This document shows, in pieces, positions 14,506 to 41,032 of a DNA stretch of 64,000 nt; the first letter of the stretch is position 1, and each line of letters starts with the position of its first letter. Source of the DNA: Cypionkella sp. (GTDB taxonomy: Bacteria > Pseudomonadota > Alphaproteobacteria > Rhodobacterales > Rhodobacteraceae). Below the pieces are notes generated by a model that saw nothing but the letters and a program-made list of their open reading frames with translations, was not told the DNA's origin and did no database searches. The stretch lies in contig NZ_JAUSBA010000070.1 in assembly GCF_030652235.1 (NCBI RefSeq), forward strand, positions 1 through 64,000, read 5' to 3'. The position numbers and the translations under genes were made by a program.

Positions 14506-14542
14506 GTTTCCGCGCTTCTCGGCCTATAGTCTGACCAATATG

Positions 14543-14670: not shown

Positions 14671-14678
14671 GTGAGCGG

Positions 14679-15296: not shown

Positions 15297-15307
15297 TTTG
15301 GCTTTCT

Positions 15308-15323
15308 TGTCCGCACGTGGACA
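15308..15323. promoter_or_regulatory. imperfect palindrome upstream of the acetyltransferase
   Basis: TGTCCGCACGTGGACA starts 12 bp upstream of the acetyltransferase start. It differs in only three central positions from the perfect palindrome at 45627-45642. Function unknown; it could be an operator or an RNA hairpin in the leader. Confidence 0.35.
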
Positions 15324-15400
15324 GGGAGGAGGTCTATGTGATTTCAATGGGTTAGGGGAACCTGTTCACCGCTTGTTAACGATTTGACCTGAACGTAGGG

Positions 15401-15519
15401 GCCGTCCGCAGGGGCATCGAGCCCCTTTGAACGGCGCTGCCGGGGAAAGATTGCGCGGGCGGTTTGAACTTTCCAGCGGCAGCTGCCGCAGGAGGGGGCT
15501 CGATGCCCCTGAGGGCGGC
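15401..15519. repeat. MITE-like palindromic element, copy B
   Basis: 119 bp. The first about 25 bases (beginning GCCGTCCGCAGGGGCATC) and the last about 25 bases (ending CCCCTGAGGGCGGC) are inverted complements of each other with few mismatches. The element aligns to copy A (14548-14665) end to end in direct orientation. An additional internal hairpin AGGGGC-ATCGA-GCCCCT is present in the left arm. Together with 15520-15609 it fills the 313-bp space between the acetyltransferase and phnE2. Confidence 0.8.
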
Positions 15520-15552
15520 ATCTGGTTATCGGATGGTTGGGCTGAAAGGCGG

Positions 15553-15585
15553 GAGCCTCCGGCGGGAGTATTTTGAAAAGAGCAA
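15553..15585 (+). repeat. dispersed GC-head/GGAGTATTT repeat
   Basis: AGCCTCCGGCGGGAGTATTT is followed by an A-rich tail. The same module occurs as an inverted pair at 46454-46541, and a related form with a different GC head occurs at 32646-32694 and 41058-41108. Lies just downstream of phnE2. Confidence 0.6.
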
Positions 15586-15609
15586 TTCGACCGGGGCGCG
15601 GCTTTTGCT

Positions 15610-16929
15610 TTACCGCCCGATCAGTTTGCGGCGCAGCCAGCCCGAGAAGCTGTCCATCGCCATCACCATCAGCACGATCAGGATCATGTAATAGGCGACA
15701 TCCTCCCAATCCTTTTGGGTGATGATGGCTTGGGTCAGCAACAGGCCGATGCCGCCGCCGACGATGGCACCGATCACCGTGGCCGAGCGGGTGTTGGATT
15801 CGAGGTAATACAGCACTTGGCTGAGCAGGATGGGTGCTATTTGCGGCAGCACGCCGAAGCGGGCGCGTTGCAGCGGGCCTGCGCCGGTGGAGCGGATGCC
15901 TTCGACTTGTTTTTCGTCGATGTTTTCCAGCGCTTCGGAGAAGGTTTTGCCAAAGGTGCCGCTGTCGGTGAGCAGGATCGCCAAAGCGCCGGTCATCGGG
16001 CCGGGGCCGAAGGCGCGGGATAGGATGATGGTCCAGATCAGGCCATCGACGCCGCGCACGAAATCGAACAGGCGGCGGAAGGCGAAGCGCACGCTGCGGA
16101 AGGGGGTGAAGTTACTCGCGGCGAGAAAAGCGAGGGGCAAAGCGATCAGTGCCGCGCCCATGGTGCCAAGGAAGGCCATCAGCACGGTTTCAAACAGCGC
16201 CCAAGCGACATCGCCGTGGTGCCATTGTTTGTTGTGCCAGAACTCCGACGCCATATAGCTGAGGTTGCTGCGGGCGGGGTCGAGGCGTTCGCCGCCCAGT
16301 ATCGCGGTCAACTGGCCGTAGGATTTGTCGTAGAATGGGCTGTCGAGGGTGAAGAAGAACAAAGCCCAGCCGGGTTGGTATTTGAAGGTTTCCACCTTGG
16401 AGCGCGAATAGGCGAAGCGGCCTTGCGGGGTGGTGACGGAAATGCGGGTGTCGGTGACGTTGATCCAGTCGGGGATGGGTTGCGGGGCGGTCAGTTTCAG
16501 CTTGCCGCTTTCGGGCTGGATGTCGATCACGCCATAGCCGGGGACGTTGTAGCGCGCGCCGCGTGTGTCATAGGTGACGATGTTATCTTTGCCGAGGTCG
16601 ATGGTGGTGGTGTCGCCATCGGTCTTGACCCAAGCCGGATATTGGTTGGGGGCGAAGGTGGCTTTTGCTTCGCCTTCAATCGAGACGGAGAGTTTGTCGG
16701 TGCGGTTGTCGCGGGTGACATGGGTTTTATAGGCAACAAAATCGGACAGCAGGATCTTGGCGTTGTCCATCCGGGCGCGGGCGGCAAGGCCGGGGATGTC
16801 AAAGCTGATGAACAGATACGACAGGTAGATCAGCAGCAGCACCGGGATGGAAAAGGCGGTAAGGCGGCGGGTTTTGAATTGGTGCTGCACGGTGGCATAG
16901 GCGGTGCCGAACTGGCTTGCATCAGTCAT
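15610..16929 (-). CDS. phnE: phosphonate ABC transporter permease PhnE (second subunit)
   Basis: 439-aa inner-membrane permease. One N-terminal helix (about residues 25-45) is followed by a soluble insert of about 170 residues rich in beta strands, then about five or six helices with the permease EAA-like loop (FGKTFSEALENIDEKQVEGIRSTGA, shown in part). This long form is the usual partner of a shorter PhnE in Rhodobacterales. It follows phnE1 by 1 bp. The role is uptake of phosphonates together with PhnC and PhnD. Confidence 0.92.
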   Translation of the reverse strand: MTDASQFGTAYATVQHQFKTRRLTAFSIPVLLLIYLSYLFISFDIPGLAARARMDNAKILLSDFVAYKTHVTRDNRTDKLSVSIEGEAKATFAPNQYPAWVKTDGDTTTIDLGKDNIVTYDTRGARYNVPGYGVIDIQPESGKLKLTAPQPIPDWINVTDTRISVTTPQGRFAYSRSKVETFKYQPGWALFFFTLDSPFYDKSYGQLTAILGGERLDPARSNLSYMASEFWHNKQWHHGDVAWALFETVLMAFLGTMGAALIALPLAFLAASNFTPFRSVRFAFRRLFDFVRGVDGLIWTIILSRAFGPGPMTGALAILLTDSGTFGKTFSEALENIDEKQVEGIRSTGAGPLQRARFGVLPQIAPILLSQVLYYLESNTRSATVIGAIVGGGIGLLLTQAIITQKDWEDVAYYMILIVLMVMAMDSFSGWLRRKLIGR

Positions 16930-16930
16930 C

Positions 16931-17809
16931 TTACTGTCCCTTTACCAGACGGTTGCGGGCGTAGCCCGACAGTTGGTCGAAGACCACGATGGCGCAGAAC
17001 AGAAGGGCGAAGATGGCGATGACCTGATCGTATTTACCGCCACCCCATTGCATTGCCAGTTTCAGATCATAACCGATGCCGCCCGAGCCTACGAAGCCGA
17101 GGATGGCAGAGGCGCGGATGTTGATCTCGAACCGTAGCAGGGCGTAGGACAGCCAGTTCGGGGCGACTTGTGGCAGGATGCCGAGCCAGATTTGCTGGCT
17201 CCACGAAGCGCCGGTCGAGGCGAGGCCTTCGACGGGTTTCAAATCAGCATTTTCGGCAGATTCCGAGAACAGTTTGCCCAAAGCGCCAGCGGTGTGGAAG
17301 GCGATGGCGAGCACAGCGGGGACGGGGCCACCGCCCAAGATAAAGATCAGGATCAGCGCGATAACGATCTCGGGGATGGCGCGCATGATATCGGCAGAGC
17401 GGCGGAACAGCGGGGTGAGGATGGGGAAGCGCGCAAGGTGGCGGGTGGAGCCGAGCGCGAGGAAGGCTCCGAAGGCGCCGCCCAGCAGGGTGGCGGCAGC
17501 GGCGATGTTGATGGTTTCGATCAGAGAGGGCAGATATTGCCACAGCAGCGCCGGTATGTTGGCGCGGTTTGTCCATGCTTCGGACAGGACTTCGGCGGGG
17601 AAGGCGTGCAGTTGGTGCAGGCCGGACAGGAAATCTCCGGCGTTGCGGTCTTGGGCGGTTTTGAAGCCGGAGGCCATCAGGGCCACGAACAGGATCAGCA
17701 GGATGAACCCGTAAAGCCGCTTGCGGCGGGTCTGGTGGATATAGGCCTCGGTGGGGTTGTTCAGATCGGGGCGTTTGCCCGGCTCTGGCCCGAAGGTGAT
17801 GTCAACCAT
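16931..17809 (-). CDS. phnE: phosphonate ABC transporter permease PhnE (first subunit)
   Basis: 292 aa from the ATG at 17809, which has a TGGAGG ribosome site; the longer frame runs back into phnD. About six membrane helices and the EAA motif region (LGKLFSESAENADLKPVEGL) are present, with GSGGIGYDLKLAMQW near the C-terminus. It pairs with the 439-aa PhnE. It is preceded by an intrinsic terminator/attenuator, expected to set a lower dose for the permeases than for the binding protein. Confidence 0.93.
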   Translation of the reverse strand: MVDITFGPEPGKRPDLNNPTEAYIHQTRRKRLYGFILLILFVALMASGFKTAQDRNAGDFLSGLHQLHAFPAEVLSEAWTNRANIPALLWQYLPSLIETINIAAAATLLGGAFGAFLALGSTRHLARFPILTPLFRRSADIMRAIPEIVIALILIFILGGGPVPAVLAIAFHTAGALGKLFSESAENADLKPVEGLASTGASWSQQIWLGILPQVAPNWLSYALLRFEINIRASAILGFVGSGGIGYDLKLAMQWGGGKYDQVIAIFALLFCAIVVFDQLSGYARNRLVKGQ

Positions 17810-17823
17810 GTGGCCTCCAAATG

Positions 17824-17852
17824 AAAAACCGGACCCGCTTGCGCGGGCCCGG
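17824..17852 (-). terminator. attenuating terminator between phnD and phnE1
   Basis: On the minus strand CCGGGCCCGC-GCAA-GCGGGTCCGG is followed by five T residues. The stem has one mismatch. It lies after the phnD stop and before the phnE1 ribosome site. Confidence 0.75.
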
Positions 17853-17867
17853 CGATCGGTGCTGAAA

Positions 17868-18758
17868 TTACTCGCCGGAAAGTTTGCGGGCTTCGACAAT
17901 GCCGAGATACATGTCGTGGCTGGCGGGGACGAAGTCTTTCGCGTCACCCGCGGCGACTCCGTAGGCGCATTTCGCGTCGGTTTCCCAAAGGTCAGCGGTC
18001 AGTTTGGTGACTTTGGCTTTCACATCCGCCGGAAGGGCGGCGCGCACCACCATCGGGCCTTCGGGAATCATCTTCGAGCGCCAGATTTCCACCAGATTGT
18101 TCATGTCAACAAGGCCTGCATCGGCGGCTTTGCGGAAGGCGCCCGAAGCATAGCCGTCTTCCCAGTTGCCGATGCCATCGGCCCAAGACACGCCCGCATC
18201 GAAATCGCCATTGTTGACGCCGACGATGGTTTGCTCATGCCCGCCCGAGAATTTCACTTCCGAGAAGAATTTGTCCAGCGGACCGTAGGCTGCGATCATT
18301 TCAGCCGCAGGCACGAGGTAGCCCGAGGTCGAGTTCGGCTCGCCAAAGGCGAATTTCTTGCCCTTGGCGTCTTCGACCGTCTTGATGCCCGAATCAGCGC
18401 GGGCGAAGGCGATGGAGTAATAGCCGGTCGAGTCGTCAAGGTTTTGCTTGGTCAGTTCAACCGTGACGGCGTTCGGGTCGGTCAGGTAGATCTTGGCATA
18501 GGCCGAAGCGCCGAGCCACGCCATATCAAGCGTGCCGCCGAGCAGGCCTTGGATCACGCCGTCATAGTCAGCAGGGGTAAAGACCTTGACCGGAACACCC
18601 AGCTCTTTTTCAATCGCAGCGCGGTAGCATTCGTTCGAGGTCATGCGGTCTTGGGCGTTCTCGCCGCCCAGAATGCCGATGTTGAATTCTTTCAACTCTT
18701 GCGCATGCGCAGAGGTGATGCAGGTGGTGGCAGCCAGAACGGCAAGCAGCTTTTTCAT
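17868..18758 (-). CDS. phnD: phosphonate-binding periplasmic protein PhnD
   Basis: 296-aa solute-binding protein with a Sec signal peptide ending AHAQ at about residue 20. Family features include FNIGILGGENAQDRM, the TPADYDGVIQGLLGG segment, and FGEPNSTSGYLVPA, which forms the phosphonate pocket. It delivers phosphonates, possibly 2-aminoethylphosphonate or methylphosphonate, to PhnE1E2. It lies 50 bp after phnC in one transcript. Confidence 0.95.
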   Translation of the reverse strand: MKKLLAVLAATTCITSAHAQELKEFNIGILGGENAQDRMTSNECYRAAIEKELGVPVKVFTPADYDGVIQGLLGGTLDMAWLGASAYAKIYLTDPNAVTVELTKQNLDDSTGYYSIAFARADSGIKTVEDAKGKKFAFGEPNSTSGYLVPAAEMIAAYGPLDKFFSEVKFSGGHEQTIVGVNNGDFDAGVSWADGIGNWEDGYASGAFRKAADAGLVDMNNLVEIWRSKMIPEGPMVVRAALPADVKAKVTKLTADLWETDAKCAYGVAAGDAKDFVPASHDMYLGIVEARKLSGE

Positions 18759-18808
18759 GGTCGTCTCCGGTTATGGGCCATTGGGGGCCTTGGTAAACTT
18801 GGTGGGGG

Positions 18809-19621
18809 TCAGGCCAGCATCGACTCGGCGTACGCGTCGTCTTTTGGGCCGGTGATTGCGGTGGATGTGGCGGATTCGTTGAAGCTGGCGTCGGCACCGT
18901 AGATATCGCGGGCGACGCCAGTGGTCAGTTGGTCCGGGGTGCCGTCAAACACCACACGGCCATCGCGCATGCCGATGACGCGGTCGCAGTAGCGGCGCGC
19001 AGTATCCAGCGTGTGCAGGTTGGCGATCACCATGCGACCGTCTTCCTCGTGGATGCGGCGCAGGGCATCCATCACCACTTGCGCGTTCATCGGATCGAGA
19101 CTGGCGATGGGTTCGTCCGCCAGAATAACCTTGGGGTCTTGCATCAGCGCGCGGGCGATGGCGACGCGCTGTTGCTGGCCGCCCGACAAAGCTTCGGCGC
19201 GTTTGGGGGCTTGGTCGGCGATGCCCAAGCGGTCAAGGATCTGCATCGCGCGGCCGATGTCGGCATCCGACCACAGGTTGAACATGGTGGCAAAAGTGGA
19301 GCGGTGGTTGAGCAGCCCGTGCAGCACGTTCGAGGCCACATCCATCCGGGGCACAAGGTTAAACTGTTGGAAAATCATCGCGCATTGGCCCTGCCAGCCG
19401 CGCTTTTCCGCCCCGTTCAGGGTTAACACGTTGCGACCTTCAAAGGTGATCTCGCCAGAGCTTGCATCGGTCAGACGGTTCATCATCCGGAGCAAAGTCG
19501 ACTTGCCCGCCCCCGAACGCCCGATCACGCCGACGAAAGCCGAGCGATCGATTTGAAAGCTGACATGATCCACGGCGGCTTTGTGACCGAACAAGCGTGT
19601 GACATTTTCGACCTTCAGCAT
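18809..19621 (-). CDS. phnC: phosphonate ABC transporter ATP-binding protein PhnC
   Basis: 270 aa from the ATG at 19621 with an AAAAGGAGACC ribosome site; upstream in-frame residues are not family-like. Walker [10 protein letters not shown], signature [14 protein letters not shown], Walker [13 protein letters not shown] and the switch His of IANLHTLD are complete. First gene of phnCDE1E2, transcribed away from the adjacent importer operon. The 219-bp divergent spacer contains Pho-box-like arrays for both directions. Confidence 0.94.
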
Positions 19622-19662
19622 CGCGGTCTCCTTTTGGTTAGGGCGGCTGATACGCCGGATTC

Positions 19663-19691
19663 GTGACGGTTGGTTGTCGCGGGTGTGACGG
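19663..19691 (-). promoter_or_regulatory. Pho-box array for phnC
   Basis: Read on the minus strand, half-sites CCGTCAC, GCGACAA and CCGTCAC recur every 11 bp (plus-strand 19685-19691, 19674-19680, 19663-19669). The outer two are identical and match the CTGTCAT-type consensus well; the middle one is weaker. The array ends about 40 bp before the phnC start. Confidence 0.6.
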
Positions 19692-19738
19692 TTGGGTAAC
19701 AAAGCGCCGTCGGTGCAACCAACTGATGCGACACAGAA

Positions 19739-23716: not shown

Positions 23717-24078
23717 AACGGGGGGCTAGAATCCGTTCTGCTACGCCAACGGTCGCGCCTTTATGGTGCCGGCCATGCTCCCGCGCGCGCCAAAAGCCAG
23801 CCCAGCAGCAGGGCGGCGGGCAGGTGCAGCCGCTCAAGCCCGGTGGTGATCAGCACCGACAGCAACGCGAGGGCGGCCCATTGCCGTGTCTGGCGTCGGG
23901 TTCAGGCTGGCGGGGTCTGCGACAACCGAGCGCCTTTCAGCAGGAAGTCGAAGGCAGGGCTGCGCCTCCGTAACCCGGGCGCCGGGGGAGGGCAATCAGC
24001 CCCGGTGGTCGATTGCCCCCACTGGACAGCTTGGCCTTGGCCTGCCAGTTTGGCGCGAACCCCAAGCCCGAGGCCGCG
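23717..24078. other. 362-bp stretch without an intact gene
   Basis: Between the ABC ATPase and the acylphosphatase-like gene. It holds a membrane-protein remnant on the minus strand (separate entry) and an inverted repeat GGGCAATC (23990-23997) / GATTGCCC (24011-24018) inside a GC-rich segment. Overlapping reading frames here have no recognisable protein character. No promoter could be assigned with confidence. Confidence 0.6.
23761..23901 (-). pseudogene. possible AbrB-family membrane protein remnant
   Basis: An open stretch of 46 codons without an ATG reads WAALALLSVLITTGLERLH then LPAALLLGWLLARAG before a TAA at 23761-23763. One or two amphipathic/hydrophobic helices ending LPAALLLG resemble the beginning of an AbrB-type (putative ammonia monooxygenase) repeat. 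All further helices are missing, so if the match is right it is a truncated relic beside the ABC ATPase. Confidence 0.3.
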
Positions 24079-24396
24079 ATGGATCACCACGTCCCCCCCT
24101 CTCCAGCCGCAGACCCTGCGCGGGAGCAGAGCCAAAGTTTTGCCGTTCTGGGCGATGTCGGCGCGCCGATTTTTGCCGCTTGGATCGCCCGCCATGCCCG
24201 CCGTCTGGGCCTGCGTGGGGCGATATTGCGGCATGACGCTGGGCGGGTCGAGATGGTGGTGACCGGCTTGCCCGACCTGCTGGATGCGATGGCTTTGGGC
24301 TGTAGCCTTGGTCCACAAGAGGTTTGGGTGGAGCGGATTGATCGCACTGAAACCGCTCTGCAAAATTTGAACGAATTCGCTTCGATAGCTGATTAA
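24079..24396 (+). CDS. small acylphosphatase-like protein, catalytic residues apparently lost
   Basis: 105 aa from the ATG at 24079. The segment from GDVGAPIFAAWIARHARRLG to WVERID has the length and spacing of an acylphosphatase fold (first loop, helix, beta strand, second helix). In active acylphosphatases the loop is GxVQGVxFR and an Asn follows about 18 residues later. Here the Arg position is Ala (GAPIFAAW) and no Asn is seen in GAILRHDAGRVE. Activity is therefore doubtful. It is 128 bp before the Rieske gene and in the same direction. Family assignment is moderate. Confidence 0.5.
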   Translation: MDHHVPPSPAADPAREQSQSFAVLGDVGAPIFAAWIARHARRLGLRGAILRHDAGRVEMVVTGLPDLLDAMALGCSLGPQEVWVERIDRTETALQNLNEFASIAD

Positions 24397-24524: not shown

Positions 24525-25139
24525 ATGATGTCGGGGATGTGGGTGGCCAATGGCTTGTCGCAGGATTTGCCGCTGGGCGTCGTGATGGCGGGGGCATGGC
24601 AGGGGGCAGAGCTTGCGATCTGGCGCTCGGCTTCTGGGCGGCTGTCGGCTTGGAATGATCGCTGCCCGCATCGCGGCATGCGGCTGTCGCATGGCTTTGT
24701 GCGCGGGGAGACGTTGTCCTGCATCTATCACGGTTGGGCCTATGGCACCGATGGCGCCTGCAGCAAGATCCCGGCGCATCCGGCGATGGTGCCGCCTGCC
24801 GCGATCAAGGCCGAGGTTTATCAATGTGTTGAGGCGGAGGGCGTGATCTGGGTGGCCCCTGCGGGGAGCGATGTGGATTTGCCGGATTTGAGCGGGCTGG
24901 CCGCGGTGCGCTCGGTTACGGTGCAGGCTGGGCTGGCCGAGGTCGCCCATGCTTTGCCGGGGTTTGTCTGTGAGGGCGCGGTTTGGCGCGGGCAGTTGGA
25001 CGGTGCGGCGGTGGCGTTGGTGGTGCAAGATCGCGGTGCCTTGGTGCGCATACACGCATTGGGTACGGGCGACCGGGTTAAGGTGTCGCGCTGGCTGGAT
25101 GGTATGATGCGCTTGGCAGAACAGGGGGTTTTGGCATGA
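24525..25139 (+). CDS. stand-alone Rieske [2Fe-2S] protein, partner of the adjacent oxygenase
   Basis: 204 aa from the ATG at 24525. The Rieske motif is complete: C47-P-H49 and C66-I-Y-H69 (CPHRGMRLSHGF through LSCIYHGW), giving CXH-X16-CXXH. The layout around it, including the tail after the cluster (CSKIPAHPAM), matches the N-terminal domain of Rieske non-haem iron oxygenases rather than a soluble ferredoxin. The rest (residues 90-204) has no mononuclear iron site. It overlaps the next gene by ATGA. The next polypeptide carries the iron site but no Rieske motif, so the two probably form one split oxygenase. Confidence 0.85.
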   Translation: MMSGMWVANGLSQDLPLGVVMAGAWQGAELAIWRSASGRLSAWNDRCPHRGMRLSHGFVRGETLSCIYHGWAYGTDGACSKIPAHPAMVPPAAIKAEVYQCVEAEGVIWVAPAGSDVDLPDLSGLAAVRSVTVQAGLAEVAHALPGFVCEGAVWRGQLDGAAVALVVQDRGALVRIHALGTGDRVKVSRWLDGMMRLAEQGVLA

Positions 25140-25981
25140 TCCCGCAGGCGGTGTTGAACGAATGGTATCCGGTGGCGATGATCGCGTTGGTCGGGCCGCG
25201 GCCGGGGCGGCAGACCCAGCTTTTGGGCAGCGATATTGCGGTGTTTCTGGAGGACGGTCAAATCGTGGTGCAGGGCGCGAAAGGTCAGCGCCTAGCCGTT
25301 ACGCTGCGCTATGGCCATGTCTGGGCCTGCCCCGGCACGCCTGCGCATGATCTGTTCCCAATCCCCGAGGCCGATCAGCCGGGGCGTCGGCTGGTGGATT
25401 GCGGCGTGGTGCGGGTGAAATGCTCACCGTTGCGGGCGGTGGAAAACTTCCTTGATATCGCCCACTTCCCCTTTGTGCATACCGATGTGCTGGGGGCCGA
25501 GCCACATACCGAAGTCGGCCGCTATGAGGTGCAAATCCGCGAGGACAGCGACGAGGTTTGGGCGACCAAGGTGCATTTCTACCAACCGCAAGCCGCGAAA
25601 TCGGCGGCGGGCGGGATTGTGACGGAATATATGTATCGGGTGGCGGCACCTACGGCGGCGGTGCTGTACAAGACCTGCCCGAACCAGCCCGACGCATGGG
25701 ATGTGATCGGGATTTTCGTGCAGCCCTTGACCGAGGAATTTTGCGAGGTTTGGCCGTGGATGGCGTTGTTTGATGACACCACGCCACAGGCCGATCTGAT
25801 TCAGTTTCAGCAGATGATCTTCCTGCAAGATCGCTCGATTTTAGAGAACCAGATCCCGCGTTTGCTGCCACTTGATCCGGGGAAGGAGATCCCGACACAG
25901 GCCGATCTCACCTCGATCGCCTATCGCCGCTGGTTGAAACGCAAGGGGCTGACTTACGGTGCGCAGATGGTGGCGGCATGA
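25136..25981 (+). CDS. Rieske-type oxygenase catalytic polypeptide lacking the [2Fe-2S] cluster
   Basis: 281 aa. The opening NEWYPVAMIALVGPRP and LLGSDIAVFLEDGQIVV is the beta framework that normally precedes a Rieske cluster. Both cluster loops are missing, and the chain runs straight to RYGHVWACPG. The catalytic domain has the mononuclear iron motif NFLDIAHFPFVH, with Asp107, His110 and His115. The C-terminal DRSILENQIPRLLP is typical of vanillate-demethylase-like oxygenases. Electrons would have to come from the Rieske protein just upstream. The neighbourhood (8-oxoguanine deaminase, purine importer) suggests a purine or related N-heterocycle as substrate; this is an inference. Confidence 0.85.
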   Translation: MIPQAVLNEWYPVAMIALVGPRPGRQTQLLGSDIAVFLEDGQIVVQGAKGQRLAVTLRYGHVWACPGTPAHDLFPIPEADQPGRRLVDCGVVRVKCSPLRAVENFLDIAHFPFVHTDVLGAEPHTEVGRYEVQIREDSDEVWATKVHFYQPQAAKSAAGGIVTEYMYRVAAPTAAVLYKTCPNQPDAWDVIGIFVQPLTEEFCEVWPWMALFDDTTPQADLIQFQQMIFLQDRSILENQIPRLLPLDPGKEIPTQADLTSIAYRRWLKRKGLTYGAQMVAA

Positions 25982-26643
25982 AGCTTTATGATTATGTCCT
26001 CAGCGCCAGTTGCTACAAGGTGCGGCTGCTGGCGGCGCTGATGGGGGTCAAGCTGGAGCTTGAGGCGGTGGATTTTCATCCGGGGCAGGCGCATAAATCC
26101 GCAGCGTTCCGGGCGATAAATCCCGCCGGAACGCTGCCTGTGCTGGTCGATGGCGATCTGGTGTTGAGCGAAAGCACCGCGATGCTGGTCTATCTGGCGC
26201 AAGCCTCGGGCAAGATTTGGCTGGGCGATGCCACCCCAGCCTCAGCCGCCAAAGTGCAGAACTGGCTGGCGTTCTCGGCACGGCTGGGGGCCAGTCTGGG
26301 CATGGCGCGGCTGCATGATATGCTGCTGTATCCCGGCGATATTGAGGCGTTTCGCAGGACAGGCGTTGAGTGCTTGCGTGAGTTGGAATCCCATTTGACC
26401 GAGGCGCGCTTTGCGGGCCGGATTTTCCTTGTGGGCGACAGCCCCACCATCGCCGACATCGCTTGTTTTCCAAATGTCGCCCTCGCCCCGGATGGCGGGG
26501 TTAGCCTTGACGACTACCCCTCAATCCGCCTCTGGTCGCGGGCCGTCCGCGCGCTGCCAAGATTTATCGAGATGCCGGGAATTCACCGCCTGCACGAGTT
26601 GAAACCCACGCCCGAAGCCGTGCCGCCGCTGGAGTCGCTATGA
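25978..26643 (+). CDS. glutathione S-transferase family protein
   Basis: 221 aa. N-terminal thioredoxin-like domain (MKLYDYVLSASCYKVRLLAA, INPAGTLPVLVDGDLVLSES with the cis-Pro and glutathione-contacting Glu-Ser) and an all-helical C-terminal domain (VGDSPTIADIACFP with the conserved N-capping Asp). It overlaps both neighbours by ATGA, so it is fixed within the operon. Its role there is unknown; a glutathione-dependent step or a structural role with the oxygenase are both possible. Confidence 0.88.
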   Translation: MKLYDYVLSASCYKVRLLAALMGVKLELEAVDFHPGQAHKSAAFRAINPAGTLPVLVDGDLVLSESTAMLVYLAQASGKIWLGDATPASAAKVQNWLAFSARLGASLGMARLHDMLLYPGDIEAFRRTGVECLRELESHLTEARFAGRIFLVGDSPTIADIACFPNVALAPDGGVSLDDYPSIRLWSRAVRALPRFIEMPGIHRLHELKPTPEAVPPLESL

Positions 26644-27998
26644 GTTATCTGCTGAAAAACTGCGCCGCGATTGTGCCCTCGGCCAGCGATCTGGTGCTGA
26701 CCGGGCAGGATATGCTGATTGAGGGCAAACAGATTGCGGCGATCGGCCCGAACCTGCACGCCCCCGGCGCGGAAGTGATCGATGCGTCGGGCTGGTTTCT
26801 CTACCCCGGCTTGATCAATACGCATCACCATTTCTTTCAATGCTTTGTGCGCAACCGCGCCGATCTGGATTGGACCAAGCTTTCGGTGATCGAATGGTTG
26901 GATCTGATCTATCCGATCTTCTCACGGCTAACAGAAGATCAGTTTTACCATTCGTCGGTGGTGGCGTTGGCGGAACTGATCAAACATGGCTGCACCACGG
27001 CGTTTGACCATCAATACAACTTCCCCAAGCATGCCGGGACGCGCATCGTCGACCGGCAGTTTGAGGCCGCAGACCTGCTTGGCATCCGCTTTCATGCCGG
27101 ACGCGGCGGCAATACCCTGCCGAAATCCGAAGGTAGCACCATTCCCGATGAGATGCTGGAAACCACCGCGCAATTCATCGGCGATTGCGAGCGGCTGATT
27201 GACACCTATCACGACGCCAACCCGTTCAGCATGCGTCAGGTCGCGGTTGCCCCCTGCCAGCCCGTCAACTGCTACAAAGACACCTTCGAGGAATCTGTCC
27301 GCCTCGCCCGCGACAAAGGCGTGTTGCTGCACACCCATGTCGGCGAAGGCGAAAGCCCGGTGATCGAGGCGCGCACGGGGCGGCGGACGGTGCAATACCT
27401 TGACGAGATAGGGTTTTCTGGCCCTGACACGTGGTATGCGCATTGCTGGGAGTTGACTCATGGCGAGTTGGCGCAGATGGCCGCTGCCCGAACCGGCGTG
27501 TCGCATTGCCCAGAGCCGGTCTATCTGGTCGGGGCCGAAGTCACCGATATTCCGGCGATGCAGGCCATGGGTTTGCGGATCGGTTTGGGCTGCGATGGCG
27601 CTGCGTCGAATGATAATTCCAACCTGATGCATGCCATCCATTCCGCTTATATGCTGCAATGTCTGGTCGCCTCGACTCGGCAATACCCGGTGCCGGAACC
27701 CAGCGCGTTCCTGCACTACGCGACCACCGGCGGGGCTGATTTGCTCGCCCGCAAAGATATAGGCCGCCTTGCACCCGGCATGGCCGCTGATCTGTTCGCC
27801 ATCGACACCCGCCGTCTGGAATATGTCGGCACCCGCCATGACCCGGCCAGCCTGATCCCCAAGGTGGGGGTCGGTCGCCCCGTCGATATGACCATGATCA
27901 ACGGCCGCATCGTCTGGCGCGACGGTCAATTCCCCGGCCTGAATGAGCACGACCTGTTCGCACGCGCCGAAGCATCCCTCCACCGCATCCTGTCTTGA
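26640..27998 (+). CDS. 8-oxoguanine deaminase / ATZ-TRZ amidohydrolase
   Basis: 452-aa metal-dependent amidohydrolase. The metal ligands are seen in NTHHHFFQ (residues 60-67), LLHTHVGEG, the HC of WYAHCWEL and the Asp of LGCDGAASND. This combination and the HHHFFQ block are characteristic of 8-oxoguanine deaminases, which convert 8-oxoguanine to urate; guanine or other aminated heterocycles are possible. The gene follows the GST by ATGA overlap and is followed by a nucleoside-type importer. Its urate product would feed the 38-41 kb allantoin-pathway genes. Confidence 0.85.
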   Translation: MSYLLKNCAAIVPSASDLVLTGQDMLIEGKQIAAIGPNLHAPGAEVIDASGWFLYPGLINTHHHFFQCFVRNRADLDWTKLSVIEWLDLIYPIFSRLTEDQFYHSSVVALAELIKHGCTTAFDHQYNFPKHAGTRIVDRQFEAADLLGIRFHAGRGGNTLPKSEGSTIPDEMLETTAQFIGDCERLIDTYHDANPFSMRQVAVAPCQPVNCYKDTFEESVRLARDKGVLLHTHVGEGESPVIEARTGRRTVQYLDEIGFSGPDTWYAHCWELTHGELAQMAAARTGVSHCPEPVYLVGAEVTDIPAMQAMGLRIGLGCDGAASNDNSNLMHAIHSAYMLQCLVASTRQYPVPEPSAFLHYATTGGADLLARKDIGRLAPGMAADLFAIDTRRLEYVGTRHDPASLIPKVGVGRPVDMTMINGRIVWRDGQFPGLNEHDLFARAEASLHRILS

Positions 27999-28029
27999 TC
28001 CAAAATCCCAAAGTCCCAAAGGAAACCCG

Positions 28030-29121
28030 ATGACCCAGACCCGCCGCTCTTTTCTCAAATCCACCCTCGCCGCCAGCACCGCCTTGGCTTTGCCGATCCC
28101 GGCCTTTGCGCAAGACGCTGTGCTGAATGTCGCGCTGATCGTGCCGTCTCCCGCCGCCGATGTCGGCTGGTCGCACACGCTGGAGCTTGGCACCAAGGCG
28201 TTGGAGGCCGAATATGGAGACAAGATCAAAGTCACTTTGCTGGAGAATATCGCCGAAGGCCCCGATGGCGACCGCATCATGAACAAGACCGTAGCCGACG
28301 GTAATACCTTCCTGATCCTCGGCTCGTTTGGCTATATGAACGGCGGGTTGAAGCTGGCCAAAGCGCACCCGGAAGTGTCGATCCTGCACGCCTCGGGCTA
28401 TCAAACCGCGCCCAACTTCTCGCCGTTTGGCGCGCGCTATTATCAGGGCACTTACCTCATGGGGATGGCGGCTGCATCCTTGTCGAAGTCGAAGAAACTT
28501 GGCTGTGTCGGCGCGTTTGCGATCCCCGAACTGATCACCTCGATCAACGCCTTCACTTTGGGCGCGCAATCGGTGGACCCTGCGATTGAAGTGTCGGTGG
28601 TCTGGGTGAACTCGTGGTTTGACCCTGCATCCGAGCAAGAAGCCGCCAAGGCGCTGCTGTCGCAGGGCTGCGATGTGGTGTTCTCGAACGCGCAGGACAC
28701 GCCTTCGGTGGTCGCCGCGTGTGAAGAGGCCGGGGCTTTTGTGTTCAACCTGAACTCGTCGATGAAGACCTATGCGCCGAAGAAATATCTGGGCGTGGTG
28801 GGCACCGACTGGGCACCGTATTTCAAGGCGAGCGTGGCGGCACACTTGGCGGGGACGTTTGCGGGGGCGAGCGCCTGGCTCGGGATGGCCGATAACTGCG
28901 TGTTCGTGGCCGACTGGAACCCCGATATTGCGCCGGATATGGTGGCGAAGATTGAGGCGGTCCATGCCACCCTGCTGGATGGCAGCTTCAGCCCTTTCAC
29001 CGGGCCTTTGACCAACCAAGACGGGGCTGAGGCTGTGGCGGCGGGCGTGACTTTGGGTGACGATGCGATCTTGTCGATGGATTGGCATGTGAAGGGCGTC
29101 ACGACGCCTTTGCCGAAATAA
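28030..29121 (+). CDS. BMP-family substrate-binding lipoprotein-like protein of a purine/nucleoside importer
   Basis: 363 aa from the ATG at 28030. The N-terminus MTQTRRSFLKSTLAAS is a twin-arginine signal ending at AFAQ (about residue 28). The fold is that of basic-membrane-protein (BMP/PnrA-like) binders: VPSPAADVGWSHTLELG, LILGSFGYMNG and VVGTDWAPYF. BMP proteins bind nucleosides or nucleobases. Its partners are the three following genes; the 31-bp spacing from the deaminase keeps it in the operon. Confidence 0.9.
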   Translation: MTQTRRSFLKSTLAASTALALPIPAFAQDAVLNVALIVPSPAADVGWSHTLELGTKALEAEYGDKIKVTLLENIAEGPDGDRIMNKTVADGNTFLILGSFGYMNGGLKLAKAHPEVSILHASGYQTAPNFSPFGARYYQGTYLMGMAAASLSKSKKLGCVGAFAIPELITSINAFTLGAQSVDPAIEVSVVWVNSWFDPASEQEAAKALLSQGCDVVFSNAQDTPSVVAACEEAGAFVFNLNSSMKTYAPKKYLGVVGTDWAPYFKASVAAHLAGTFAGASAWLGMADNCVFVADWNPDIAPDMVAKIEAVHATLLDGSFSPFTGPLTNQDGAEAVAAGVTLGDDAILSMDWHVKGVTTPLPK

Positions 29122-29125
29122 CCCG

Positions 29126-30634
29126 ATGACCGCGCTGTTATCTTTGCAATCCGTATCAAAGCGTTATGGCGCGGTGCAAGCCAATGCCGGGATTAATCTG
29201 GTGGTCGATCCCGGTTCTATCCATGCCATATTGGGCGAAAATGGCGCGGGGAAATCCACGCTGATGAAGCTGATTTACGGTGTAGAGTCGCCCGATGCGG
29301 GCGTGATCCTGTGGAAGGGTCAGCCCGTTAACCTCTCCAGCCCTGCCGAGGCGCGGGCCTTGGGGATTGGCATGGTGTTTCAGCATTTTTCGTTGTTTGA
29401 AACCCTGACGGTGGTGCAAAATATCGCGCTGATCGTGCCGGGGCGGAAGACGGATTTGGCCCGCCGCATCCGGACTTTGGGCGATGAATTTGGCCTAAAC
29501 GTCGACCCCGAGGCGATGGTGCATGCCCTGTCGGTGGGTGAGCGGCAGCGGGTGGAGATTATCCGCTGTCTGCTGTTGAACCCTGAGTTGTTGATATTGG
29601 ATGAGCCGACCTCGGTGCTGCCGCCGCAAAGCGTTGCGCGGTTGTTTGAGACGTTGCGGGCCTTGCAGGCGCGCGGCGTGGCGATCTTGTTCATCAGCCA
29701 TAAACTGGAAGAAATCAAAGAGTTGTGTGACACGGCGACGATCCTGCGGGGGGGCCAAGTGACGGGCCGCGTCGATCCGCGCGGCCATTCTGCCAAGGAT
29801 CTCGCCACTCTGATGATTGGCCGCGCGATGCCGCCGCCGTTGCCTGCAACCGTGCAGGCGGTGGGTGAGGTGCGGCTGGAGCTGAGCGGGTTGGATTTCG
29901 TCAATGACGATCCGTTCGGCGTCTCGCTGTCGGATATTTCCTTGCGGGTGCACAGTGGCGAGATCGTCGGCATCGCCGGGATTTCCGGCAATGGTCAGCA
30001 GGAGTTGGCGGCGCTGATCTCGGGTGAGGTGGTGCAACCGGGCGATATGATCCGCATGTTGGGGCATGCCGTGGGGGCGGTGGGCGTAGCGCAGCGCCGC
30101 AAGATGGGTTTTGCCTTTGTGCCAGAGGAGCGCTTGGGGCGCGGTGCGGTGCCGGAAATGTCGCTTGCCGACAATGCTTTGCTGACCGCGCATGGTGCGG
30201 GTCTTGTGCAGAACGGTTTCATCCGCCGCACACCCGAGCGCGCCTATACCGCCGCCTGCATCGCCCGCTATGACGTACGCACGCCGGGGCCAGAGGCCGA
30301 AGCGGGCGCGCTTTCCGGCGGCAATTTGCAAAAATTCATCATGGGCCGCGAGATGATGCTGGAGCCCAAACTGCTGCTGGTGTCGCAGCCGACTTGGGGC
30401 GTCGATATTGGCGCGGCCACTGACATTCGGCAGCGCTTGGTGGCGATGCGCAATGCGGGGGCGGCGATACTGGTGATCTCGGAAGAATTGGAGGAGTTGT
30501 TCCAGATCTGTGACCGCCTGCATGTGTTGCACAAGGGGCATCTGTCGCCGTGTTTGCCGACCCATGCAACGACGGTTGAGGAAGTCGGCACCTATATGAT
30601 CGGCGCGGGAAAATCGCCCGAGGTGGCGGCATGA
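29126..30634 (+). CDS. nucleoside/purine ABC importer ATPase (NupA/YufO type, two ABC domains)
   Basis: 502 aa with duplicated ATPase domains. The first has Walker A GENGAGKST (about residues 37-45), signature LSVGERQRVEIIR and Walker B LLILDEPTSVL. The second has a degenerate Walker A (GISGNGQQEL) and signature LSGGNLQKFIMGRE. This asymmetry is normal for the monosaccharide/nucleoside importer class. Starts 4 bp after the BMP protein and overlaps the next gene by ATGA. Confidence 0.92.
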   Translation: MTALLSLQSVSKRYGAVQANAGINLVVDPGSIHAILGENGAGKSTLMKLIYGVESPDAGVILWKGQPVNLSSPAEARALGIGMVFQHFSLFETLTVVQNIALIVPGRKTDLARRIRTLGDEFGLNVDPEAMVHALSVGERQRVEIIRCLLLNPELLILDEPTSVLPPQSVARLFETLRALQARGVAILFISHKLEEIKELCDTATILRGGQVTGRVDPRGHSAKDLATLMIGRAMPPPLPATVQAVGEVRLELSGLDFVNDDPFGVSLSDISLRVHSGEIVGIAGISGNGQQELAALISGEVVQPGDMIRMLGHAVGAVGVAQRRKMGFAFVPEERLGRGAVPEMSLADNALLTAHGAGLVQNGFIRRTPERAYTAACIARYDVRTPGPEAEAGALSGGNLQKFIMGREMMLEPKLLLVSQPTWGVDIGAATDIRQRLVAMRNAGAAILVISEELEELFQICDRLHVLHKGHLSPCLPTHATTVEEVGTYMIGAGKSPEVAA

Positions 30635-31701
30635 AGATCAGCTTTATCCGCCGCGAACGCGCCTCTCGCACCGCCATGCTGGTGGCCCCGGTGGCGGCCT
30701 TCGCTTGCGCGATTGTGGCAAGCGTGGTGCTGTTCACCCTGCTGGGAAAGGCCCCCGGTCAGGCTTTGTATTCGCTGCTGCTGGAGCCGTTCCTGACATG
30801 GTATAACTTCTCGGAAGTGCTGCTGAAGATGGCCCCCTTGCTGCTGATCGCCCAAGGTCTGGCCATCGGGTTCCGCGCCAATGTGTTCAATATTGGGGCC
30901 GAGGGCCAACTGATCATCGGCGCGATTGCGGCCTCGGCACTGCCGGTGTGGTATCCGCAGGGCGATAGTGCTTTCATGTTGCCCGCGATGCTGCTGATGG
31001 GGGCAGGGGCGGGGATGGCTTGGGCTGGGATCGCGGCGCTGTTTCGCACAAGGTTCAATGCCAATGAGATTCTGGTGACGCTGATGCTGTCGCTGATTGC
31101 AGCACAGGTGTTGAACTATCTGCTGCTGGGGCCTTGGAAAGACCCGCATGGCTTTAACTTTCCGCAAAGCGTGATGTTCCCCGATGCCGCCTTGCTGCCG
31201 ATCCTTTTGCCCGGCACACGGGTGAATATCTCACTGCTGTTCGCGCTGATCGCCAGCGTTCTGGCCTCTATCCTAATGCGCCACCGCTTTGCCGGGTTTC
31301 AACTGTTGGTCGGCGGGCTAGCGCCCCGCGCTGCCCGCTATGCCGGGTTCAGCGAAGCCCGTGCGATCTGGGTCAGTCTGCTGCTGGGAGGGCTGGCGGC
31401 GGGGCTGGCGGGGGCCGCCGAGGTCGCGGGGCCGCTGGGGCAGCTGCAACGCTCGGTCTCGACTGGATACGGCTATTCGGCGATCATCGTGGCGTATTTG
31501 GGCGGGCTGAACCCTTGGGGTATCGTGATATCGGCCTTTGTGATGTCAGTGATCTATATTGGCGGCGATAATGCAATGGTGTCGGCGGATCTTCCGATCG
31601 CCGCTGTCTGGGTGTTCCAAGGCTTGCTTTTGTGCTTCTACCTCGCGGGCCTCACCTTCATCCGCCACCGCGTCAGCTTCATCCGTAAGGCCAAGCCATG
31701 A
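30631..31701 (+). CDS. nucleoside/purine ABC importer permease 1 (NupB/YufP type)
   Basis: 356-aa permease with about ten hydrophobic segments. FRANVFNIGAEGQLIIGAIA (about residues 82-101) is the hallmark of this branched-chain/nucleoside permease family. FNANEILVTLMLSLIA is a second conserved block. ATGA overlaps on both sides. Confidence 0.92.
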   Translation: MKISFIRRERASRTAMLVAPVAAFACAIVASVVLFTLLGKAPGQALYSLLLEPFLTWYNFSEVLLKMAPLLLIAQGLAIGFRANVFNIGAEGQLIIGAIAASALPVWYPQGDSAFMLPAMLLMGAGAGMAWAGIAALFRTRFNANEILVTLMLSLIAAQVLNYLLLGPWKDPHGFNFPQSVMFPDAALLPILLPGTRVNISLLFALIASVLASILMRHRFAGFQLLVGGLAPRAARYAGFSEARAIWVSLLLGGLAAGLAGAAEVAGPLGQLQRSVSTGYGYSAIIVAYLGGLNPWGIVISAFVMSVIYIGGDNAMVSADLPIAAVWVFQGLLLCFYLAGLTFIRHRVSFIRKAKP

Positions 31702-32609
31702 ACGCTGTTGATTTCATTCTGGCGGGAATGCTCGCCGCCGCCACGCCGATGCTGTTGGCGGCTTTGGGCGAGATGGTGGTGGAGCGGTCCGGAGTGCTGA
31801 ACCTTGGGCTGGAGGGCATGATGGCGCTGGGCGCGGCTTTGGGGTTTATCACCACTTACACCTATCAAAGCCATGCTTTGGGCTTTCTGGCGGCAGGCTT
31901 GGGTGGGGCGGCGCTGTCGCTGGTGTTCGCGCTGATCGTTCTGGGGTTTGTTGCCAATCAGGTGGCGGCGGGGTTGGCGATTGGGATTTTGGGCACTGGG
32001 CTGTCGGCGCTGTTTGGCAAAAGCTTTGAAAGCCTGACGATCAGCGGATTGCCGAAAATGGCACTGCCTTTGCTGTCGGATCTGCCCGTGGTGGCGGCGC
32101 TGTTCGTGCAGGATGTGGTGGTTTGGTTGACAATCGCCCTCGCGCTGTCGATCTGGGCTGTGATGAACCACTCCAAACTCGGCCTCATCATCCGGGCGGT
32201 GGGCGAGAACCCGCATGCCGCCCGCGCGATTGGCTTTCGGGTCTTGCCGATACGCTGCGCGGCGATTGCCTTTGGTGGCGCACTGGCGGGGATCGCTGGG
32301 GCCTATGCCTCCACCGTCTACACCCCCTTATGGGCTGATGGCATGATCGCCGGGCGTGGCTGGATCGCTTTGGCGCTGGTGGTGTTTGGCACGTGGCAAA
32401 CCGGGCGGGTGGTGTTTGGCGCGTTTTTGTTTGGAGCTTTGTCGTTGGGCGAGTTGACGACGCAAGCGGCAGGCGTCAACATCCCGTCGCAGCTTTTGGC
32501 CTGCGTGCCCTATATCGTGACGATCCTGATGCTGGCGGTGATTTCCTCCAACCGTCGGCGGATGCGGCTGAACACGATTGCCTCTTTGGGGCAGCCGTTT
32601 GAGAAGTAG
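31698..32609 (+). CDS. nucleoside/purine ABC importer permease 2 (NupC/YufQ type)
   Basis: 303-aa permease. ERSGVLNLGLEGMMALGAAL (about residues 29-48) and GENPHAARAIGF are the usual family blocks, with eight to nine helices. It completes the BMP importer and is the last gene of the operon. Within 40 bp downstream a dispersed GC-rich/GGAGTATTT repeat begins. Confidence 0.92.
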   Translation: MNAVDFILAGMLAAATPMLLAALGEMVVERSGVLNLGLEGMMALGAALGFITTYTYQSHALGFLAAGLGGAALSLVFALIVLGFVANQVAAGLAIGILGTGLSALFGKSFESLTISGLPKMALPLLSDLPVVAALFVQDVVVWLTIALALSIWAVMNHSKLGLIIRAVGENPHAARAIGFRVLPIRCAAIAFGGALAGIAGAYASTVYTPLWADGMIAGRGWIALALVVFGTWQTGRVVFGAFLFGALSLGELTTQAAGVNIPSQLLACVPYIVTILMLAVISSNRRRMRLNTIASLGQPFEK

Positions 32610-38777: not shown

Positions 38778-40193
38778 ATGCCCCGCTACCCCCGTGATTT
38801 CCGAGGCCATGGCCCAGACGCCCCCGATGCCGCTTGGCCAAATGGCGCAAAGATCGCGGTCTCCTTGGTGCTGAACTACGAGGAGGGCGGCGAGAACAAC
38901 ATCCTGCACGGCGATGCAGGCTCCGAGGCGTTTTTGTCCGACATCGCAGGGGCCGCCGCTTGGCCCGGTCAGCGCCATTGGAACATGGAATCGATCTACG
39001 ATTACGGCGCCCGCGCGGGCTTCTGGCGGCTGCACCGCTTGTTCACGGGCATGGATATTCCGGTCACCATTTACGGCGTCTCCACAGCCCTCGCCCGCAA
39101 CCCCGAACAGGTTGCCGCAATGAAATCCGCAGGCTGGGAGATCGCCAGCCACGGCCTGAAATGGGTCGATCACCGCGACATGCCGATCGAGGAAGAACGC
39201 CGCCAGATCGCCGAGAGCATCCGCCTGCACACCGAAGTCGTTGGGGATCCCCCGCGCGGCTGGTACACCGGGCGCTGCTCGCTCAACACCGTGGATCTGA
39301 CGGCAGAAACCGGTCAATTCGACTGGATATCTGACACCTATGACGACGATCTGCCCTATTGGCGCGAGGTCGGGCCCCGCGATCAACTGGTGATTCCCTA
39401 CACGCTGGAAGCCAACGATATGCGCTTTGCGACAGCCCCCGGCTACATCGAAGGCCAGCAGTTTTTCCAGTACCTGAAAGACAGCTTCGACACGCTTTAT
39501 GCCGAGGGCCAAGAGGGCAGGGCGAAGATGTTATCCATCGGTCTGCACTGCCGCCTGATTGGCCGTCCGGGTAAAATCGCTGGGCTGAAGCGCTTCCTCG
39601 ACTATGCAAAATCCCACAATCACGTGTGGTTTCCCCGCCGCATCGAAATAGCCGAGCATTGGGCAAAGGTCCATCCGCACAAGCGGTTCAAGCGGCCAAC
39701 GCAGATGAGCCGCGACCGCTTCATCGAAGCTTATGGTTCAATTTTCGAACATTCGCCCTGGATCGCTGACCGTGCCTTCGATCTCGAACTCGGACCCGCG
39801 CATGATAGCGCCACAGGCCTGCACAACGCATTGGCCCGCGTCTTCCGCACGGCCTCCGCTGACGAACGCCTGCAAGTCTTGCAAGCCCACCCCGACCTCG
39901 CCGGGAAACTCGCCGCCGCGAAACAACTCACCGCCGACTCGACCTCCGAGCAAGCCGCTGCCGCCTTGGACGCCCTCACCGACATTGAGCGCGCCCAATT
40001 CCAAACCTTGAACACCCAATACACCCAAAAGCACGGCTTCCCCTTCATCATCGCCGTGCGCGACCACTCCAAAGCCAGCATCCTCGCGGCTTTTGAAACC
40101 CGCATCGCCAACACTACCGAAATCGAATTCAAAACCGCCTGCGCCCAAGTCGAACGCATCGCCGCCCTGCGCCTGAAGGATCAACTGCCATGA
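38778..40193 (+). CDS. allantoinase PuuE fused to OHCU decarboxylase
   Basis: 471-aa bifunctional protein. Residues about 1-305 form a polysaccharide-deacetylase-like (NodB) domain of the cofactor-independent allantoinase PuuE (RYPRDFRGHGPDAPDAAWP, LNYEEGGENN, ASHGLKWVDH). Residues about 315-471 are OHCU decarboxylase: GSIFEHSPWIADRAF, the catalytic His in QAHPDLAGKLA, then EQAAAALDALTDIERAQFQ and HGFPFIIAVR. The second domain makes S-allantoin from OHCU and the first opens it to allantoate, so the two consecutive steps are on one chain. Overlaps the next gene by ATGA. Confidence 0.93.
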   Translation: MPRYPRDFRGHGPDAPDAAWPNGAKIAVSLVLNYEEGGENNILHGDAGSEAFLSDIAGAAAWPGQRHWNMESIYDYGARAGFWRLHRLFTGMDIPVTIYGVSTALARNPEQVAAMKSAGWEIASHGLKWVDHRDMPIEEERRQIAESIRLHTEVVGDPPRGWYTGRCSLNTVDLTAETGQFDWISDTYDDDLPYWREVGPRDQLVIPYTLEANDMRFATAPGYIEGQQFFQYLKDSFDTLYAEGQEGRAKMLSIGLHCRLIGRPGKIAGLKRFLDYAKSHNHVWFPRRIEIAEHWAKVHPHKRFKRPTQMSRDRFIEAYGSIFEHSPWIADRAFDLELGPAHDSATGLHNALARVFRTASADERLQVLQAHPDLAGKLAAAKQLTADSTSEQAAAALDALTDIERAQFQTLNTQYTQKHGFPFIIAVRDHSKASILAAFETRIANTTEIEFKTACAQVERIAALRLKDQLP

Positions 40194-41032
40194 GCCAATA
40201 TTACACACCCCCCGGCGGCCTGCCCGCGCAAACCACGCTGATGACAGGCCGTGCTACGTTCACCAACGCCTATGCCTTCATCCCCAAAGGCTGCTTTTCC
40301 GACATCCTCACCAGTTGCCTGCCCGGCTGGCGGCACACCAAACTCTGGCTGATCGCCCGGCCGATGTCGGGGTTTTCCGAAACCTTCAGTCAATATGTGA
40401 TGGAGGTGCAGCCAGGTGGCGGCTCTGACGCCCCCGACGCTGAGGTCGGGGCCGAACATTTCCTGTTCGTCACGGGCGGCCTGATCACCCTGACCATCGA
40501 CGGCACAGGCTACGAATTAGACGCAGGCGGCTACGCCTTTATCCCTCCGGGGGCAAAATGGCGATTGCTGGCTGAGGGCAGTGGGCCTGCCCGTTTCCAC
40601 TGGATTCGCAAACTTTACGAGCCCGCCCCCGGCGTCGACATCCCCCCCGCCTTCGTGATCAACGAAAAAGACGTGCGCCTTAGCATGATGCCCGACACCA
40701 ACGGCGTCTGGGGCACCACCCGCTTCGTTGACCCGACCGATGTGCGCTACGACGCCCATGTCAACATCGTCACGTTTCAGCCTGGCGGCGTGATCCCGTT
40801 TGAAGAAACCCATGTGATGGAACACGGGCTTTATGTGCTGGAAGGCAAAGCGGTTTACAAACTGAACCAAGACTGGGTCGAGGTCGAGGCGGGCGATTTC
40901 ATGTGGCTGCGCGCCTATTGCCCGCAAGCCTGCTACGCCGCAGGCCCCGGCCCGTTCCGCTACCTGCTTTACAAAGATGTAAACCGCCACGCCAATCTGC
41001 GCGGCCCCGGAGGCTATCGCCCCAGCCGCTAA
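40190..41032 (+). CDS. (S)-ureidoglycine aminohydrolase, bicupin (AllE/YlbA type)
   Basis: 280-aa bicupin. The N-terminal MTGRATFTNAYAFIPKGCFS and the second cupin VNIVTFQPGGVIPFEETHVMEHGLYVLEGKAVY (metal ligands Glu, His, His, Gln order) match ureidoglycine aminohydrolases. These convert ureidoglycine to ureidoglycolate with release of ammonia. They act after allantoate amidohydrolase, for which no gene is seen in the window. Coupled to the upstream allantoinase fusion. Confidence 0.88.
   Translation: MSQYYTPPGGLPAQTTLMTGRATFTNAYAFIPKGCFSDILTSCLPGWRHTKLWLIARPMSGFSETFSQYVMEVQPGGGSDAPDAEVGAEHFLFVTGGLITLTIDGTGYELDAGGYAFIPPGAKWRLLAEGSGPARFHWIRKLYEPAPGVDIPPAFVINEKDVRLSMMPDTNGVWGTTRFVDPTDVRYDAHVNIVTFQPGGVIPFEETHVMEHGLYVLEGKAVYKLNQDWVEVEAGDFMWLRAYCPQACYAAGPGPFRYLLYKDVNRHANLRGPGGYRPSR

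Follow-up and report, generated by a model that had tools for sequence, protein, structure and literature searches.

Introduction

In ordinary Rieske oxygenase trimers, the cluster of each subunit supplies electrons to the iron of the adjacent one. A system in which the cluster and the iron lie on separate polypeptides is NdmCDE, which, together with its homologues, was reportedly first described by Summers et al. in 2013. According to PMC4408171, NdmCDE from Pseudomonas putida CBB5 is a methylxanthine N7-demethylase, whose catalytic chain, NdmC, is devoid of a Rieske cluster and depends on the Rieske-bearing NdmD. The structure of the NdmCDE complex is given as unsolved in PMC13237722.

Here, we analyse a stretch of 64,000 nucleotides of Cypionkella sp. 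DNA (the window), in which a Rieske chain (R), a predicted catalytic chain (C) and a GST-like protein (E) are encoded by successive, overlapping genes. The earlier note on this DNA had seen in the R/C pair a separate architecture, possibly undescribed. Sequence, conservation and predicted fold support the divided architecture. The claim to novelty falls: NdmCDE is published (PMC4408171) and its relatives share a clade with the window pair, so that the divided architecture is already described and the window pair is thus a variant of it. A characterised homologous pair in print was among the findings that the note itself had named as speaking against its reading. The earlier interpretation is right in substance and wrong in novelty.

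In both NdmCDE and the window system, the catalytic chain has iron ligands and no Rieske ligands, the Rieske domain is carried by another polypeptide, and a GST-like gene is the third member of the cluster. The NdmCDE-type loci retrieved were L015-L018 and L022; L015 (P. putida) and L016 (P. caffeinilytica), used as stand-ins for the CBB5 sequences, share a clade with the window pair. Identity between the C of these two loci and the window C is 42-43%, the window E is 42.4% identical to the E of L015 and 46.2% to that of L016, and the window R is 34% identical to the first 245 residues of the R-reductase of L015. In contrast with NdmD, which carries Rieske and reductase in one chain, the window R is free-standing. 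Moreover, unlike NdmCDE, the window operon is without a reductase match (positions 15001-42000 searched) and contains an amidohydrolase and a BMP-type importer. No account of a free-standing R without an operon reductase was found in the literature searched, a scope that leaves most subscription journals outside.

The other described oxygenases compared have a single-chain organization. In sequence and fold, the solved chains closest to both R and C are SxtT and SxtDIOX (GxtA), followed by NdmA; unlike R/C, these carry cluster and iron in one chain. HpxDE, the molybdenum-independent xanthine hydroxylase of Klebsiella, is a Rieske oxygenase annotated in purine breakdown, but HpxD consists of a single chain and lies far from the divided clade in the tree.

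Two overlapping genes with separate predicted metal sites

The features of the locus are as follows.

24013..24396, + strand: acylphosphatase ORF upstream of R, a conserved neighbour (PF00708, 1.8e-7)
24525..25139, + strand: R, free-standing Rieske [2Fe-2S] chain, 204 aa (PF00355, fold model)
24663..24671, + strand: first Rieske ligand pair of R, C47-P-H49 (invariant in 82/82 rows of alignment A2)
24720..24731, + strand: second Rieske ligand pair of R, C66-I-Y-H69 (invariant in 82/82 rows of A2)
24876..25136, + strand: R tail, about residues 118-204, lacking iron ligands and probably a vestigial catalytic domain (profile and superposition)
25136..25139, + strand: ATGA start/stop overlap of C and R, in different frames
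25136..25981, + strand: C, predicted catalytic chain with a mononuclear iron site and without a cluster, 281 aa (PF19112, fold model)
25136..25336, + strand: N-terminus of C, about residues 1-67, putative vestigial Rieske domain with both cluster loops missing (profile alignment with R)
25445..25480, + strand: NFLDIAHFPFVH, C residues 104-115, with D107, H110 and H115 (invariant in 46/46 rows of alignment A3)
25829..25831, + strand: D232 of C, predicted third iron ligand (invariant in 46/46 rows of A3)
25978..26643, + strand: E, GST-like protein, 221 aa, 4-base overlap with C (GST_N/GST_C Pfam matches)
26640..27998, + strand: amidohydrolase, closest to 8-oxoguanine deaminase but under the model cut-off (NF006055)
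28024..29121, + strand: BMP/PnrA-type substrate-binding protein of an ABC importer (PF02608, 1.4e-34)
29126..32609, + strand: ATPase and two permeases of the BMP-type importer

The earlier note had described a 204-aa protein with the full Rieske ligand set and no iron site, overlapped by a 281-aa protein with an iron site, in which both Rieske loops are deleted and the flanking strands still recognisable. This description holds, as do its coordinates, lengths and overlap of the two ORFs. At a threshold of 0.001, R matches only one Pfam family, Rieske PF00355 (1.4e-19, residues 6-87), and C only VanA_C PF19112 (2.8e-20, residues 94-269), with no Rieske match in C in Pfam. The four residues of R that we take, from knowledge of the family, to be the cluster ligands (C47, H49, C66, and H69) are invariant in all 82 rows of alignment A2. 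Besides the window R, this alignment contains 81 of 82 further R chains, the non-redundant set of the 114 that were found; it omits L020 5787-6320, which by eye has a Gly at the second cluster Cys. On the C side, H110, H115, and D232 are presumably the iron ligands and D107 the bridging Asp, again from family knowledge. All are invariant in the 46 rows of alignment A3, which contains the window C and 45 of 48 reference C chains. The partial chains L175 and L170 1-696 and the divergent L020 4969-5790 are omitted from A3, and L190, with unread bases, was dropped earlier. When the profiles of R and C are aligned with each other, they match end to end, strands flanking the deleted loops included; C is gapped at the two cluster loops and R over the active site.

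Neither R nor C is therefore a single-chain alpha subunit with both sites in one chain. A full-length chain produced by read-through, which the earlier note had named as a finding that would speak against its reading, is excluded: the two frames differ and the next stop lies 5 residues beyond that of R, so read-through adds only these residues and cannot make a fused chain. Sequence and predicted fold support a divided oxygenase, in which R would carry the cluster and C the iron site.

Conservation of the divided pair

A scan of named genomes confirmed at least 514 stretches, of which the best 80 were kept (C identity 68-90% in the best segment). These 80 stretches reach at most 6 kb on each side and some of them end at contig ends; C was picked by the motif ENF[LM]D and gene families by our own HMMs. 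Among the best 80 of at least 514, a chain with a Rieske motif adjoins C in 80/80 loci and no single ORF holds both motifs. The pair is therefore not due to chance, and the question raised earlier of whether the same pair occurs in other genomes has a positive answer. By the same HMMs, these best 80 stretches contain R (80), E (80), acylphosphatase (78), BMP protein (77) and amidohydrolase (76), and a reductase in none (0/80). Within the same selection, the C/R overlap is nominally 4 bases in 53/80 loci and 1 base in 2/80; it differs in the remaining 25/80, where the longest ORF starts further upstream.

The frequency of the pair was also followed at several taxonomic levels, with sets that share members (L090 and L187, for instance, are apparently one contig). 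With the window C as query (1e-20), matches are found in 10/385 genomes of the class, two of them via full-length oxygenases (L011 and L012). With alignment A1 (1e-40), the count is 23/398 genomes of the phylum, eight of them via full-length oxygenases (L138-L145), and, in the order, 18/244 genomes, wider stretches being taken for some. With A3 (1e-75), two other families give 9/299 and 9/249 genomes; one of the 9/299 matches, L253 (G1019), was rejected as a divided pair, as it seems to encode a full-length oxygenase in an interrupted frame, beside a BMP importer and with no GST match. E. coli genomes gave no DNA match ('distant' blastn). Five apparent cases of C without R in the stretch (L019, L167, L168, L178, and L179) were dismissed, R lying just beyond the first stretch.

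Two plasmids carry unusual copies. In a Lichenihabitans plasmid (L019 and L243, across the record start), R is annotated as a short chain of 137 aa and the GST match is split into three pieces; this copy may be decayed. In a Komagataeibacter nataicola plasmid (L020), a second, divergent C/R pair at 4969-6320, with Gly in place of the second cluster Cys of R (by eye), sits beside an R/C/E set that has the ligands and a free reductase.

The constant company of C bears on the idea that R is an ordinary ferredoxin of the Rieske type, which belongs to a three-component system and serves another oxygenase. R is indeed small, Rieske ferredoxins occur as separate genes, and ferredoxin and NirD/MocE-type models give weak matches to R. 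But compared with solved chains, R is nearest to the oxygenase alpha chains SxtT (2e-26), SxtDIOX, and NdmA, with 6.5e-6 for the best ferredoxin, CarAc; its AlphaFold2 model has an extra folded tail, and the gene beside it in every one of the 80 loci encodes a cluster-less C. With alpha chains as the nearest relatives of R, we have ruled the ferredoxin assignment out as a working model and hold it to be very improbable.

R and C as possible copies of one oxygenase

The profiles of R and C are co-linear (P 97.1%, E 7.1e-11), much of the score coming from the Rieske part. The R tail was also compared separately with the catalytic part of C. This comparison (hhalign) gave a score of 35.6 (P 73.4%, 24 columns), and a first trial with another alignment gave 33.8 (P 63.9%, 19 columns). 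Controls remained lower, at no more than 18.4 for 200 column shuffles, 11.8 for the reversed profile and no more than 16.0 for seven other families. On its own, this tail signal is moderate.

AlphaFold2 models of R (pLDDT 96.0, from 75 rows) and C (pLDDT 91.5, from 38 rows) extend the comparison. In the R model, the tail adds about 87 folded residues with the secondary structure E-H-E-E-E-E-H. Both predicted models adopt the two-domain alpha-chain fold and find SxtT/GxtA first. All of the first 24 hits are SxtT/GxtA for R (TMq 0.71-0.78, rmsd 4.0-5.5 angstrom), and C also finds SxtT/GxtA in its first 24 hits (TMq 0.80-0.88, rmsd 2.8-4.0 angstrom); these rmsd values are high, and AlphaFold2 was trained on solved Rieske oxygenases. 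Residues 1-117 represent 57% of R and residues 68-281 represent 76% of C, so that alone they would reach TMq values of at most 0.57 and 0.76, bounds that are arithmetic on the reported scores with domain borders (117/118 in R, 67/68 in C) chosen by us and no residue map. Because the observed values exceed both bounds, more than the intact domain superposes in R and in C.

From profiles and models together, the R tail is probably a vestigial catalytic domain without iron ligands, and we infer that the N-terminus of C is a vestigial Rieske domain without cluster loops. Both lines suggest that R and C are copies of one full-length oxygenase that underwent complementary loss. The earlier note had left out the likely catalytic-domain remnant in the R tail, as well as the GST-like gene at 25978-26643.

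A simpler course would be gene fission near the domain border, R being then a Rieske domain with an unrelated tail and C a catalytic domain. R and C do each hold one functional domain, in the natural order, and the sequence signal of the tail has only the strength given above. Yet a clean break would leave neither a Rieske remnant in C nor a catalytic-like tail in R, and is therefore disfavoured: C appears to keep a cluster-less Rieske fold, and both sequence and superposition liken the tail of R to the catalytic domain. We judge fission improbable, if less so than the ferredoxin assignment.

Phylogeny and the full-length sister group

The R chains form one clade in the Rieske-domain tree (96/95), and the C chains do so in the catalytic-domain tree (99/98), apart from the edge fragment L170 1-696. 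The nearest full-length group common to both trees comprises the seven sequences L138-L144. A joined tree was built from 26 pairs and 18 full-length rows, with one C per locus where there are two and without L170 1-696 and two divergent L020 rows. It recovers the divided clade (100/99), which includes the window pair and the NdmCDE-type L015 and L016. The sister fork has a support of 94/89, under the strong mark of the tree program, and HpxD lies far outside. For the outer full-length rows, the program also issued a warning about long branches that meet.

The sister oxygenases L138-L144 (wider stretches L264-L270) are single chains, yet their genes lie beside the same importer ATPase, permease, and BMP genes in 7/7 cases. 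No GST-like gene is found within 12 kb of them (0/7). Hence, we infer that E goes with the division of the oxygenase rather than with the importer operon.

Reductase arrangement and R as a possible shared chain

Across the divided loci, four arrangements of the reductase occur: fusion to R, fusion to C, a free gene, or none in the stretch. It is fused to C, with R separate, in L021 8989-10803 (Variovorax) and L248 4893-7229, and free in L020, L175, L180, and L247; L260 has a free and a fused one. At least 3 changes of arrangement are needed on the joined tree. The data remain compatible with all R-reductase fusions forming one clade (p-AU 0.144), a group that was defined after inspection of the tree. 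According to a review, no self-sufficient Rieske oxygenase has been identified so far (PMC12445004); the C-reductase fusions of L021 and L248 are a partial step to such an enzyme.

No dedicated reductase was found in the window genome: the best NdmD-type match, L121 9475-10440, was discarded, as it adjoins a DmmA-family gene. L121 8424-12329 of the same genome contains a DmmA-family dimethylamine monooxygenase gene with its own reductase. Among 15 genomes searched at 1e-10, 14 have a match (only about 1e-11 in G756 and G876) and G783 has none. Several of the best matches in the other genomes sit in open frames of more than 1000 aa and are therefore not simple reductases.

Seven stretches have two C genes and one R (L018, L166, L169, L183, L261, L262, and L263), not all of them independent, since L261 and L263 are from the same genus. 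In L261-L263, an amidohydrolase adjoins each C. The whole genome that contains L261 (G732) has one R match at 1e-8.

Proposed mechanism and origin

The explanation that accounts best for the whole, and that we regard as quite probable, is that R and C are subunits of one Rieske non-haem iron oxygenase, bound by E, derived from a duplicated ancestor and acting on a purine. R would be reduced by an outside reductase or ferredoxin and would pass single electrons, across a presumed R-C interface, to the iron of C via the conserved Asp. E may hold the R-C complex together, by analogy with what is proposed for NdmE. Since two kinds of subunit cannot alternate evenly in a trimer, R and C would be expected to form a larger ring or to be present in unequal numbers.

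As for the origin, homology and structure comparison point to a full-length oxygenase encoded in the importer operon, which would have been duplicated. The cluster loops would then have disappeared from one copy and the active site from the other, with the GST-like gene joining the pair. With more reserve, we lean towards a longer course of events, in which complementary decay of the duplicates led to an obligate R/C hetero-oligomer bound by the recruited GST-like protein. R would then have come to serve as a shared power unit that drives interchangeable C chains, and later the reductase would have been attached to R (NdmD), to C (L021 and L248), or to neither.

The features that are possibly new are the free-standing R, the complementary loss, the full-length sisters found at the importer without E, and the combination of one R with two C. 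The most notable are the evidence for complementary loss after duplication, which, if true, would be a clear molecular case of subfunctionalisation, and that for R as a shared unit. With cluster and iron on separate genes, either side can be altered, titrated or labelled independently of the other, and an R serving two C chains would offer a ready-made test of partner recognition.

Gene context and possible substrate

The genes downstream of E point to purine metabolism. The window amidohydrolase, which overlaps E by 4 bases, reaches 376 bits with NF006055, against a cut-off of 532; its nearest solved chain is 7ww2. It is followed by the BMP-type ABC importer (28024-32609), and urate breakdown genes are found 6 kb further on.

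38778..41032, + strand: urate breakdown genes outside the operon, PuuE/OHCU decarboxylase and (S)-ureidoglycine aminohydrolase (NCBIfam, above cut-off)

A ureidoglycolate lyase-like gene at 41139-41627 (by eye) continues this set.

Eight amidohydrolases near divided pairs were scanned. The guanine deaminase model TIGR02967 is above its cut-off in L177, L183, and L189 and just below it in L168, L178, and L192. The 8-oxoguanine deaminase model exceeds its cut-off in 2/8 (L166 and the second amidohydrolase of L178). The first amidohydrolases of L261-L263 are above no model cut-off. Near the full-length sisters, guanine deaminase is above cut-off in L266, L269, and L270, and adenosine deaminase in L265. 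Because of these deaminase matches near pairs and sisters, together with the urate breakdown genes, a purine substrate is likely from gene context. The exact substrate is a guess, since the amidohydrolases of the window and of L261-L263 are below the cut-offs.

Two reactions can be considered. We prefer N-demethylation because this is what NdmC does (PMC4408171). From the gene context and from NdmC, the substrate would be a purine base, with guanine or xanthine in N-methylated form as the most likely candidates, and the demethylated purine would enter the guanine-xanthine-urate route. We suggest 7-methylguanine, derived from RNA and caps; the literature searched (titles and abstract starts) yielded no relevant account of this compound.

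The main rival on the reaction keeps the same architecture and assumes, as for HpxDE, that a purine is hydroxylated at C8. For the window, this would mean conversion of guanine to 8-oxoguanine and then to urate via the amidohydrolase. The 8-oxoguanine-deaminase-like gene in the operon, the matches to the same deaminase near the C genes of L166 and L178 and the urate breakdown genes all agree with this route. However, HpxD is placed well outside the divided clade, the window amidohydrolase stays under the model cut-off, and NdmC, the only characterised relative found in the literature searched, is an N7-demethylase (PMC4408171). C8-hydroxylation is therefore rather unlikely, though it carries more weight than either rival view of R. 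On the purine reading, many rhizobial and rhodobacterial genes annotated as 'aromatic ring-hydroxylating dioxygenase subunit alpha' and 'Rieske protein' would likely belong to purine breakdown.

Elsewhere in the window, positions 4477-19702 hold what by eye resembles a phosphonate C-P lyase cluster, which also includes two PhnM-like genes and one CorA-like gene.
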